Shown here piece after piece: positions 10,042-33,344 of a stretch of DNA of 64,000 bases. The DNA is from Spirochaetota bacterium (GTDB taxonomy: Bacteria; Spirochaetota; UBA4802; UBA5550): positions 190,488 to 254,487 of the forward strand of contig JAGNKX010000007.1 in NCBI GenBank assembly GCA_017999915.1, given 5' to 3'. Each line of letters begins with the position of its first letter. The stretch's first letter is position 1. The translations under genes and the position numbers were made by a program. The notes beneath the pieces are model-generated. The model was not told the DNA's origin and made no database searches. It saw nothing but the letters and a program-made list of their open reading frames with translations.

Positions 10042-10152
10042 GTGTCGCACTCAGCGGTTACAACCGCGTTATGACCAATAGGGTCAAGGTACGGTAAAAG
10101 TCAAGAACATTGTAAGGATTTTTTTGTCGGGTCAAGAGGCACAGTTGCCGTC

Positions 10153-10221
10153 GGTTGCCGAGCGGAGCGATGCAGTGAGCCTGCCGAACTGACGAGGCAA
10201 GCGGGATAGCCCGGCCCCCAC
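10153..10221. repeat. Partial palindromic element related to 31497-31602
   Basis: TTGCC (10155-10159) pairs with GGCAA (10196-10200), followed by AGCGGGATAGC and a GC-rich tail ending CCCCCACCCA. The element at 31546-31607 has CCGCC/GGCGG in the same place, then AGCGGGATGGCTC and CCCCCACCCA. The stem bases differ but still pair. The left half of the larger element is not recognisable here. It lies between pheS and the ROK kinase gene. Confidence 0.5.
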
Positions 10222-10237
10222 CCAATGCTACTCCCCA

Positions 10238-12870: not shown

Positions 12871-13090
12871 GCTCCCCTTTTCCCCGGTCGCTCAATCGCC
12901 GCGACGGGCTTACTTTTGATGCTTGTAATGTTTTCAAGGTTTTTCTGTTTGTGAAAGATTGTGGATATTGTTTGCTTTATAGCGATGGCAATAAAAGCCT
13001 TTCTCCTTTCGCTCCGGAAGGCCCTTCCTGGGCCATCCTCGCGACGCCGCGCGTCCTGCGCGGCGACTTGCCAATAAAGGTTACTATGAA

Positions 13091-13116
13091 CACCCGTGGC
13101 AGGGAGGCCACGGGTG
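13091..13116. repeat. Perfect 10-bp-stem hairpin
   Basis: CACCCGTGGC (13091-13100) and GCCACGGGTG (13107-13116) enclose a 6-nt loop. No T-tract follows. Confidence 0.75.
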
Positions 13117-13382
13117 GCGCGAGTCTGCAGGAGGCTGCATAGGAGCGCCGGGCAGGTTAACTAATTTCTTAGATAACGACCAGCCCGCCGCAGGCGCGGG
13201 GGAGAAGGGGAGCGCGAAGGGGGAGAAGGGAGGCCGCCCCTCTCCCCCTCGCATAATCCCTGCCCCGGTTCAGGGTAAAGAAACATGAGTGCTTTTTAAG
13301 ATATTTCGGCCACATCATATAAATCGTGCTTGCCTGATTTTCGACTTGCATGCTGGATCATACCAACAGGAAACCAATCATC

Positions 13383-23507: not shown

Positions 23508-23600
23508 AAGATGATAATCTGTTATTGACGTTAGGCGAAATTCACTTGTTTAGTGCGACATGGAATTGAATAAACAATAATCAATCAATACAAAAGTCAA

Positions 23601-23661
23601 GCAAAACAGGATGTTTTGCGTGAAGCGAGGATGGTTCACGATGAACCTTCCGCAGCAAAAC
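23601..23661. repeat. Nested hairpins with ACAGGATGT core
   Basis: GCAAAAC-aggat-GTTTTGC (23601-23619) is a tight hairpin; the same GTTTTGC can alternatively pair with GCAAAAC near 23655-23661 around GGTTC-acgat-GAACC. The two pairings are mutually exclusive. The ACAGGATGT core recurs in the element at 31497-31602. Confidence 0.55.
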
Positions 23662-23763
23662 AAATAGCTATAATTGCGCACCAACTAATAAAGCAATAAA
23701 CAGGTGGATTTCGCCTCTATTGTTATTAATCAGGACCTCAATTTTGATTAAAAACATCTCCGT

Positions 23764-24158
23764 ATTTACAAGCTAATTATTGCATTTTCGGGGTCAAGGG
23801 GCGAAGCCCCTCGTAAACCCAACCCCCAAGTTATTATTCATGATCATATTTTCGTTTAAAAGACAATGCCTGAATTTACAAGCTAATTATTGCATTTTCG
23901 GGGTCAAGGGGCGAAGACCCTCGTAAACCCCACCCCCAAGTTATTATTCATGATCATATTTTCGTTTAAAAGACAATGCCTGAATTTACAAGCTAATTAT
24001 TGCATTTTCGGGGTCAAGGGGCGAAGCCCCTTGAAAACCCCACCCCCAAGTTATTATTCATGATCATATTTTCGTTTAAAAGACAATGCCTGAATTTACA
24101 AGCTAATTATTGCATTTTCGGGGTCAAGGGGCGAAGCCCCTTGAAAACCCCACCCCCA
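23764..24158. repeat. Tandem array of a 110-bp unit (3 full + 1 partial copy)
   Basis: Units begin at 23771, 23881, 23991 and 24101 (AGCTAATTATTGCATTTTCG) with an exact 110-bp period; the last stops after about 58 bp. Each unit holds the palindrome TCAAGGGGC-gaa-GCCCCTTGA, perfect in units 3 and 4 and damaged in units 1 and 2, followed by a C-rich CCCCACCCCC. A more diverged remnant lies just upstream. Copies differ at only a few positions, so duplication is recent. Confidence 0.92.
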
Positions 24159-24334
24159 CTTTTTTTTGACAAAAATGACTTTAAGTATTAATTTTATATA
24201 TAAAGTAAAAGATAATGTATATAGTAGCAAATAAGTGGTTTTACCGTGTTTCGAAGTTGCCCTTTCAGGTGGAGAAGAGAATATAATAATAAGAGATTGT
24301 ACTACGGGCATAGAGGATAATTCAGGATAGTTAT

Positions 24335-30755: not shown

Positions 30756-31454
30756 ATGAATAACATTCGAACCGTTTATAAACGGCTCCTCGCGTTCCAT
30801 GGCCCCCAGGGATGGTGGCCCATCGTCAATGAATCGACCCTCCGGAGCGAGTACCACCTCGGCGCCCCCCGCGATGGGAGCGACTTTTTCGAGATATCCA
30901 TAGGCGCGATTCTCACGCAGAACATAGCCTGGAAAAACGTTGATACCGCCCTGGCGGCATTGAAAAGCCGAGGCATGCTGGACCCGCAATCTCTGCGAAA
31001 TCTGAAACTTATAACCCTTGCTAAGATCATCAGGCCTACGGGTTATTACAACCAGAAGGCGAAAAAGATCAGGAACTTTCTGGACTTCTACAAACGATAT
31101 GATTATGATCACCGGGCCCTGGGCCGTTGTAACATCCATGACCTGAGAAAAGGGCTGCTTTCCGTCAACGGCATCGGGCCTGAAACGGCGGACTCGATCC
31201 TCCTGTATGCCCTGAACATGAAAATCTTCGTCGTCGACGCCTATACCAGGCGGATATTCACCCGCCTCGGAGTCTTGACCGGCAAGGAAACCTACCACGA
31301 GATCCAGGACCTGTTTCACCGGGAATTCAAGGGGAGTGTCCCTGAATATAACGAATACCATGCCCTTATCGTGGCCCACGGAAAGAATTACTGCAAAAAG
31401 AAGCCCCTCTGCGACTTATGCTGTATTGCTTCATTGTGTGAGAAGAAGTATTAA
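30756..31454 (+). CDS. HhH-GPD DNA glycosylase, endonuclease III relative
   Basis: A 232-residue base-excision repair protein. The HhH motif LLSVNGIGPETADSILLYAL (about 133-152) has Glu where endonuclease III has its catalytic lysine; the catalytic Asp is in VVDAYTRRI. Four cysteines at the C-terminus (CKKKPLCDLCCIASLC) form a 4Fe-4S loop with Cx5C-x2-C-x5-C spacing, one residue shorter in the first gap than in the E. coli Nth. Both traits match the MagIII/HP0602 branch of monofunctional alkyl-base glycosylases rather than Nth itself. It probably lacks the beta-lyase step. The gene stands between the Lrp gene and the palindromic element. Confidence 0.88.
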   Translation: MNNIRTVYKRLLAFHGPQGWWPIVNESTLRSEYHLGAPRDGSDFFEISIGAILTQNIAWKNVDTALAALKSRGMLDPQSLRNLKLITLAKIIRPTGYYNQKAKKIRNFLDFYKRYDYDHRALGRCNIHDLRKGLLSVNGIGPETADSILLYALNMKIFVVDAYTRRIFTRLGVLTGKETYHEIQDLFHREFKGSVPEYNEYHALIVAHGKNYCKKKPLCDLCCIASLCEKKY

Positions 31455-31496
31455 ATTTTACCCCAGTCCCATGAAAGGAGGCCGCAGTATATTTTT

Positions 31497-31602
31497 GGGG
31501 GTATGGAGCCATGCCGGCGAGTAGGTGACAAGGACGTCGCCGATTCCGCCGAGTCAACAGGATGTTATACGAGGCGGACGAGCGGGATGGCTCCGTACCC
31601 CC
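31497..31602. repeat. Multi-branch palindromic element (possible structured RNA or MITE)
   Basis: A closing stem joins 31497-31512 (GGGGGTA, then GGAGCCAT) with 31587-31602 (ATGGCTCC, then TACCCCC) over 16 pairs including one G-U. The enclosed 74 nt hold two more stems: GGCGA/TCGCC (31516-31520 with 31537-31541) and CCGCC/GGCGG (31546-31550 with 31573-31577), the latter topped by AACA-GGA-TGTT. This is a three-way junction with no T-tract. A partial relative lies at 10153-10221. Confidence 0.7.
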
Positions 31603-31706
31603 CACCCATTTACTACTGTGATCCAGAAGGGGCATGTTTTACCATCCATTAAAGTTCTTGACGTTCACCGTGAAATCATGTACAATTCAAATGTTGAGAG
31701 AATCCG

Positions 31707-33344
31707 ATGAACAGAAAAAAATTGACTGACATGAATGAATGGAAGGCCCTGGAGAGCCATTATAAGGAGATCAGGGAAATCTCCCTGAAATCGCTCTTCG
31801 ACTCGGATGCCGGGAGGGCGGAAAAATTCACCATCATCGAAGATGATATCCTCTTTGATTACTCGAAACATCGCATTACCGGAAAGACTATTAACCTGCT
31901 TTTAGCCCTCGCCGAAGCCTGCGATCTGAAGGGTGAGATCGAGCGGATGTTCCGTGGCGAAGCAATTAATGCCACTGAGGACCGCGCCGTGCTCCATACG
32001 GCCCTGCGGAACCTGTCCGGAGCCCCCGTCATGGTCGACGGAAAGGACGTCATGCCTGGGATCAGGGCGGTACTGGATAAAATGAAGGATTTTTCAGAAC
32101 GTGTCCGTGACGGCAGGTGGAAGGGCTTTACCGGCAAGCCGATGAGGAACATCGTCAATATCGGCATCGGAGGCTCCGACCTGGGGCCCTCCATGGCTAC
32201 CGAGGCGTTGAGGTTTTATTCTCAGCGGGACCTCCGGTCGTATTTCGTATCAAATATTGACGGTACCCACATCATGGAGACCCTCCGCGCCTGTGACCCG
32301 GCCGAAACGCTCTTCATAGTCGCGTCCAAGACCTTCACCACCCAGGAGACCATGACCAACGCCGAAACCGCCAGGAAATGGATCGTGGAGCGATTATCAT
32401 CCGAAAAGGCGATCCCCCGTCATTTCGTGGCGCTGTCGACCAACGCAGCTGCCGTGTCCGACTTCGGCATCGACGCAGAGAACATGTTCGAGTTCTGGGA
32501 CTGGGTCGGGGGGCGTTATTCCCTGGCCTCGGCGATCGGCCTTTCCCTGATGATCGCCATCGGCCCAGAACACTTCATGTCGCTCCTGGGGGGCTTCCAT
32601 ACCGTGGATAATCATTTCAGGAGCGCGCCCTTCGAGCGGAACATCCCGGTCATCATGGCCCTGCTGGGAATATGGTACGGCAACTTCTTCGGAGCGGAGA
32701 CCCTCGCGGTTTTGCCCTATGATCAGTACCTTCACAGGTTTCCCGCGTATCTTCAGCAGGCTGACATGGAATCGAACGGGAAGAGCGTCGACCGCGAGGG
32801 GAGAAGGGTGGATTACATGACCGGCCCGGTCATATGGGGAGAACCGGGCACCAACGGCCAGCACGCTTTTTACCAGCTGATCCACCAGGGAACCAGGCTT
32901 GCGCCGGCCGACTTCATAGGTTTCGCCCGGCCGCTCCATGAAGCCGGCGACCATCACCGGAAGCTCGTGGCCAACCTGTTCGCTCAGACCGAGGCCCTGG
33001 CCTTCGGCAAGACGGCGGGGGATCTGCGGGGAGAGGGCGTCACGGAGGCCCTTATACCGTACCGCACCTTTGAAGGAAACCGGCCGACCAGCACCATCAT
33101 GGCTGAACGGCTGACCCCCTCGGCGCTCGGGAAGCTCATCGCCCTGTACGAGCACAAGATTTTCGTCCAGGGCGTCATTTGGGACATCTACTCTTTCGAC
33201 CAGTGGGGCGTCGAGCTCGGCAAGGCGCTGGCGAAGAATATCCTGCCGGAGCTGGCTACGGGGTATGCGGGCGAATTGCGTCATGACGGCTCCACGAACG
33301 CTCTCATACGCTATTACAGGAACAAGCAGCCCGATGGACAGTAA
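31707..33344 (+). CDS. pgi: Glucose-6-phosphate isomerase
   Basis: A 545-residue phosphoglucose isomerase interconverting glucose-6-phosphate and fructose-6-phosphate. Seen: [30 protein letters not shown], the PROSITE-type [16 protein letters not shown], the catalytic Glu region, PEPT-like [20 protein letters not shown] with the catalytic His, and [10 protein letters not shown] at the C-terminus. GAGAG precedes the ATG at 31707. The length and motifs are those of the long bacterial/eukaryotic type. The following phosphatase gene starts inside its last codons. Confidence 0.98.

Follow-up and report, generated by a model that had tools for sequence, protein, structure and literature searches.

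MITEs, MITE-derived sRNAs such as those of Coxiella, and CsrA decoy sRNAs are each already known. The QMITE1 and QMITE2 elements of Coxiella burnetii are short MITEs without genes, with terminal inverted repeats and target duplications of 7-9 bp; they occur in about 50 copies, some of which give sRNAs, and their transcript is stably folded (PMC5896051). They were described without CsrA-type hairpins or a structure-preserving core (PMC5896051). The sRNAs CsrB, CsrC, RsmY and RsmZ carry GGA in several hairpin loops per RNA, and each is a single chromosomal locus with its own promoter and terminator and no transposon character. REP/BIME sequences are dispersed extragenic palindromes that measure about 20-40 bp and are tagged at one end with GTAG or CGTC (PMC3733652). 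In Leptospira, which is without a csrB or csrC homologue, CsrA binds a GGA hexaloop in a flagellin leader, with FliW proposed as its antagonist (PMC8668096). A literature search that covered few subscription papers found no paper linking MITEs with CsrA decoys.

The element described here lies in a window of 64,000 nucleotides (the whole stretch of DNA analysed) from an uncultured Spirochaetota bacterium. Its family resembles QMITE1 and QMITE2 in being short and geneless, with terminal inverted repeats, target duplications, dozens of copies and a stable fold, but the spirochaete core stays constant while the arms and transposon ends change. With CsrB, CsrC, RsmY and RsmZ it shares GGA in hairpin loops, several per RNA, and the same consensus; unlike those loci, it is mobile and scattered over the genome, and its two core hairpins are set in a three-way junction.

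Fold and setting of the window copy

The RNA fold of positions 31497-31602 reached -63.7 kcal/mol, against -39.8 ± 3.5 kcal/mol for dinucleotide shuffles (z -6.8; none of 200 shuffles was as good). A preliminary description had claimed a nested three-way-junction palindrome beyond chance at this place, with a 16-bp closing stem, two further stems, one of them capped by AACA-GGA-TGTT, and no T-tract; the fold and the sequence bore out each of these points. With no T-tract present, a plain terminator was rejected. Because the element is palindromic, the opposite strand folded as well, less strongly (z -4.4). An Rfam scan of the element gave no family at gathering scores and chance-level matches only at relaxed E-values, so that the element did not class with sRNA genes of the CsrB/RsmZ type.

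The copy is located about 42 nt past the HhH-GPD gene and about 104 nt ahead of pgi (Table 1). This copy was too eroded for the automatic end test, and no target duplication was recognisable at its ends.

Table 1. Positions of the element, its parts, its neighbours and the related fragment in the window.
Feature	Position	Strand	Basis or remark
Decayed fragment: family right arm plus another module; non-working copy	10150..10224	+	
Upstream neighbour: HhH-GPD (endonuclease III-like) gene	30756..31454	+	Co-directional with the element's GGA strand
Left transposon end, degenerate: GGCCGCAGTATATTTTT; family form GGTAGCAGTATAATTTTA	31480..31496	+	By-eye comparison with other copies
5' closing-stem arm	31497..31512	+	RNA fold; arm covariation across copies
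Junction strand, conserved GCGAG-N-A	31513..31523	+	Near-invariant columns in alignment A1
Hairpin 1, loop AAGGAC; tip CAAGGACG at 31529-31536, fits CANGGANG	31524..31541	+	
Hairpin 2, cap AACA-GGA-TGTT; tip CAGGATG at 31558-31564, fits CA(N)GGANG	31545..31578	+	
Junction strand and inner pairs, CGAGC region	31579..31586	+	Fold; alignment A1
3' closing-stem arm	31587..31602	+	RNA fold; 16 bp paired with 31497-31512
Right transposon end, degenerate; family form TAATTTACGACTGCTACC	31603..31624	+	By-eye comparison with other copies
Downstream neighbour: pgi (phosphoglucose isomerase)	31707..33344	+	

Copies in the genome and its relatives

The genome comprises 5.46 Mb in 29 contigs. Nucleotide searches found the element throughout it and in sister genomes, and a pattern scan of named genomes put these relatives among uncultured Spirochaetes MAGs, for example RBG_13_51_14. 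Pattern matches outside the spirochaetes, in Methylobacterium (L110) and Caulobacteraceae (L120), had no structure beyond composition and were set aside as chance.

Thirty-five copies collected by BLAST were aligned with MAFFT (alignment A1), and a covariance model built from copies (R1) was used for searching. R1 found 37 copies in the genome itself, 21 in G003, 15 in G004, 8 in G005, 5 in G001, 5 in G021, which belongs to another genus, and 1 in G011. A second model (R2) was built from 107 matches, and alignment A2 was fitted to the model. The R2 search added 8 copies in G013 and 9 in G027, two genomes from other families of the order, plus one copy each in G016 and G045; a tip-masked model (R3) added one further, degenerate copy in G002. 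Matches at E 1e-5 or better were present in 14 of the 345 genomes of the phylum. Three of the 14 genomes lie outside the order; their matches were weak, yet the long arms were there, as were two GGA motifs of the right type on the matching strand. The covariance search for further copies that the preliminary description had proposed thus returned about 40 in the genome itself, with more in sister genomes and other families. The family occurs mainly in one order of spirochaetes.

Structure-preserving change

In alignment A2, 26 of the 31 pairs were altered on both sides and 91% of cells paired. Two-sided changes numbered 454, while shuffles gave 109 ± 8 and slid controls 37-127. A2 had been fitted to its model, but the BLAST-collected A1 showed the same picture. 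Entire arms were swapped between subtypes, for example GGAGCCATCCC/GGGATGGCTCC, GGGTTCATC/GATGAACCC and GAGGCTTATC/GATAAGCCTC. What stayed constant across copies were the junction residues around GCGAG-N-A and CGAGC and both hairpin tips. The family is under selection for its structure, and the compensatory change that had been suggested as a check proved to be massive.

It had first been argued from a half-related element at 10153-10221, whose helix TTGCC/GGCAA was set against CCGCC/GGCGG. This element has in common with the family just the right-hand part (AGCGGGATAGC..CCCCCACCCA). The remainder is a different inserted module, also present in locus L074; the fold was at chance level (z -0.30), and covariance models run against 10153-10221 gave no match. 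The comparison fails because 10150-10224 joins the right arm of the family to a foreign module, and the helices compared are non-homologous. The preliminary interpretation therefore stood for further copies and compensatory change and fell for this comparison; the idea of structure-preserving change, invalid at 10153-10221, was confirmed by the real family.

Hairpin tips and the CsrA recognition site

The tip CA(N)GGANG was found on hairpin 1 in 78 of 92 scorable copies and on hairpin 2 in 61 of 72, and the stems that bear it were unrelated (GGCGAC/GTCGCC, GGGGAC/GTCCCC, GGCGCC/GGCGCC, GGCAGC/GCTGCC, TAGTAC/GTACTA). In an old subfamily hairpin 2 carries CGA. Because the earlier models include the tips, R3 was rebuilt with both tips masked as N. 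Besides recovering the family, it found 12 places that no model had been built on; the core was scorable in 11 of the 12, with GGA in 20 of 22 hairpins and CA(N)GGANG in 19 of 22. In 366 kb of DNA from the genome itself, which is enriched for the family and hence gives no genome-wide rate, there were 27 different hairpins with such a tip on a stem of 6 bp or more, whereas permuted loop cores gave 0-6. Ultra-stable DNA loops of the GNA type were considered as the cause of the GGA tips and rejected, as the last loop base varies (CAGGATG, CAGGACG, CAGGAGG, CAGGAAG).

At the level of sequence, both tips match the published CsrA/RsmA recognition hairpin. The consensus is given as A/UCANGGANGU/A for RsmE/CsrA (PMC6849547) and as RUACARGGAUGU for CsrA (PMC8668096), and the N positions of the tips vary in the same manner as in these two. 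More than one hairpin per RNA exposes (A)N GGA in its loop, as is asked of a CsrA ligand. CsrA is probably the ligand of the hairpin tips. The genome has a single csrA immediately downstream of fliW, and the CsrA sequence is normal. Since nearly all relatives have csrA, including relatives without the element, the presence of the gene is uninformative.

Transposon ends, target duplications and nested modules

Copies of one subfamily in the genome end in the terminal inverted repeats GGTAGCAGT..ACTGCTACC, as is usual in MITEs. They showed an exact 9-bp target duplication, 9 of 26 matching at 8 or 9 of the 9 bases, against none in controls and none at the other lengths tested. The GGTAGCAGT end sequence is essentially confined to this genome. 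In G013 and G027 the same core is flanked by GAGCCTATTTCAGTAGG, ends unrelated to these, and by a 3-bp TNA-type duplication that was identical in 6 of 13 copies (18% expected). Ends that begin with GAG and a 3-bp TNA duplication are typical of the IS1031 branch of IS5, and the G013/G027 lineage resembles that branch in both respects. The elements are short (54-259 bp between ends), multi-copy and without a transposase gene inside, and their target duplications are of fixed length in each lineage (9 bp; 3 bp, TNA type), all features of MITEs.

Minimal copies of 54-67 bp, made of the two ends only, also had duplications (L080, L081, L082). Among the ends-only copies of 54-58 bp (L081, G000:C19:25886-25943; L082, G000:C18:36143-36196; L083, G000:C15:87289-87342) the 9-bp duplications ranged from partial to perfect. 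End-sequence searches of the genome and of G013 and G027 found no related autonomous element, and no transposase gene with GAGCCTATTTCAGTAGG ends was found in the latter two. A 0.9-kb end pair on contig C12, considered as an autonomous IS with the same ends, lies in ordinary genes.

Some copies hold nested two-hairpin modules. One such module, inverted and bearing GGA tips of its own on the opposite strand, was present in the genome itself, G002 and G013. A nested inverted two-hairpin module stands beside hairpin 1 at L042 6350-6508, L057 1922-2134, L060 1970-2170, L248 and L293, with CANGGANG tips on the opposite strand; it is common to two families of the order.

The element family is mobile. 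The preliminary description had offered a structured RNA or a foldback mobile element as alternatives; the two hold at once, since the foldback element is mobile and has a core with the behaviour of a structured RNA. The CsrA-type tips, the transposon ends and the target duplications are additions to that description.

A REP/BIME-type palindrome mobilised by a RAYT (TnpA-REP) transposase would also occur between genes in many dispersed copies. The spirochaete element, however, measures 105-250 bp and forms a three-way junction; the GTAG or CGTC tag is absent, the GTAG position being unconserved and reading GAG-N-AG with N variable, and the 9- and 3-bp target duplications point to DDE-type and not to single-strand Y1 transposition. 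This origin is disfavoured and very improbable.

Clear transposon ends, target duplications and nested modules in both orientations are what a purely selfish foldback MITE would present. Its structure would exist only at the DNA level with no RNA role, the arms being kept complementary by template-switching self-correction and the tips being read in single-stranded DNA by a transposition or replication protein. Self-correction does not preserve loops, yet the tips persist on unrelated stems, and the tip positions that are free are exactly those that CsrA leaves free. The same core is carried by two unrelated end types, which leaves the conservation of the tips unexplained by any one transposase.

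Strand, orientation and transcription signals

Among 60 mutually diverged copies, the GGA strand had 53 G-T cells against 25 A-C cells (p = 0.002), with the reservation that the models favour G-T somewhat and that cells of related copies are non-independent. The BLAST-collected alignment A1 leaned toward G-T over A-C as well. Palindrome self-correction in double-stranded DNA would yield no such asymmetry, which thus stands against the selfish MITE. The excess of G-T over A-C points to the GGA strand as the one that folds, as RNA or as single-stranded DNA.

Between co-directional neighbours the GGA strand was antisense in 50 cases and sense in 17 (p = 7e-5, with gene calls from a simple hexamer model); the window copy, between the repair gene and pgi, is a sense case. 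This bias argues against simple mRNA-borne sites and is the main difficulty for the reading of the hairpins as CsrA ligands. Either GGA hairpins do harm within mRNAs and have been purged from them, or each element has its own transcription, which might start on the divergent side of a neighbouring promoter. No dedicated promoter was found upstream of the element, where signals toward it were no stronger than signals away from it. The antisense bias and the failure to find a promoter or terminator favour the purely selfish MITE, which, with the tips and the strand asymmetry weighed against it, we regard as rather unlikely.

The copies are intergenic, near stop codons and just outside promoters. 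Together with the very stable fold of both strands, this placement would fit a strong cis-acting boundary hairpin where transcripts of neighbouring genes are ended, processed or insulated, be it a terminator-like structure, an RNase III site or a cruciform. Such a role is improbable: there is no T-tract, convergent gene pairs are not robustly preferred, and the fixed GGA tips and junction residues would go unexplained. An avoidance of convergent pairs was dropped as well, as none was seen with 57 copies but 11 of 111 in a set of 129 copies.

A structured RNA module as proposed transposon cargo

With these results side by side, we somewhat favour a MITE-type element that carries a CsrA-binding RNA module as cargo and whose GGA strand is transcribed. 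A short non-autonomous transposon would carry the structured module, its ends, which differ by lineage, flanking self-complementary arms. The arms would close a three-way junction from which two hairpins tipped CA(N)GGA(N)G project. In a transcript of the GGA strand each hairpin would be a high-affinity CsrA site, and the pair could fill both RNA-binding faces of one CsrA dimer as a bivalent ligand. With many dispersed copies, CsrA may be drawn off by decoys or retained at transcripts close by. What is observed is a mobile multi-copy family with target duplications, structure-preserving change and fixed tips, in a genome that has a csrA gene. A decoy role in trans is conceivable, at less than even chances. 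It is somewhat unlikely that a CsrA-recruiting RNA module was acquired by unrelated transposon families within one spirochaete order and spread as a mobile, multi-copy network for CsrA titration.

MITEs are usually viewed as passive ends with filler; in this family what fills them appears to be an RNA module under selection. The module agrees with the site that a global regulator recognises, and elements with different transposon ends have it in common. If the proposed role is right, the module would take the place of sRNAs of the CsrB/RsmZ type, which are not known from these bacteria, and engaging the regulator may benefit the transposon. The copies are candidate RNA antagonists of CsrA in spirochaetes, and with the family one can test concretely whether a post-transcriptional network can be rewired by mobile DNA that spreads decoy sites.

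Other palindromes and repeats

An unrelated multi-hairpin palindrome at 12960-13220 of the window has similar tips, CGCCGCGCAGGACGCGCGGCG and GGCCCAGGAAGGGCC on the - strand and CACCCGTGGCAGGGAGGCCACGGGTG on the + strand. A relative at L056 230-520 has kept the tips and changed the stems. A small element at 23600-23670 of the window, GCAAAACAGGATGTTTTGC followed by GGATGGTTCACGATGAACCTTCC, resembles it in layout. Another dispersed element, of four hairpins, occurs at L045 1290-1450 and L074 1-140; it includes CCTGAAAAACTCCAAGGAAGGAGTTTTTCAGG with a GGA tip, which is also retained in the second copy, on CACGGAGG. At L103 5156-5289 and L042 2060-2109 the hairpin-2 tip of the family is swapped for a different palindrome (AATCCCGAT..ATCGGGATT), which looks like a small insertion of separate origin in the loop. 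Positions 23764-24165 of the window hold a tandem direct repeat with a period of 110 bp, whose copies are 95-97% identical.
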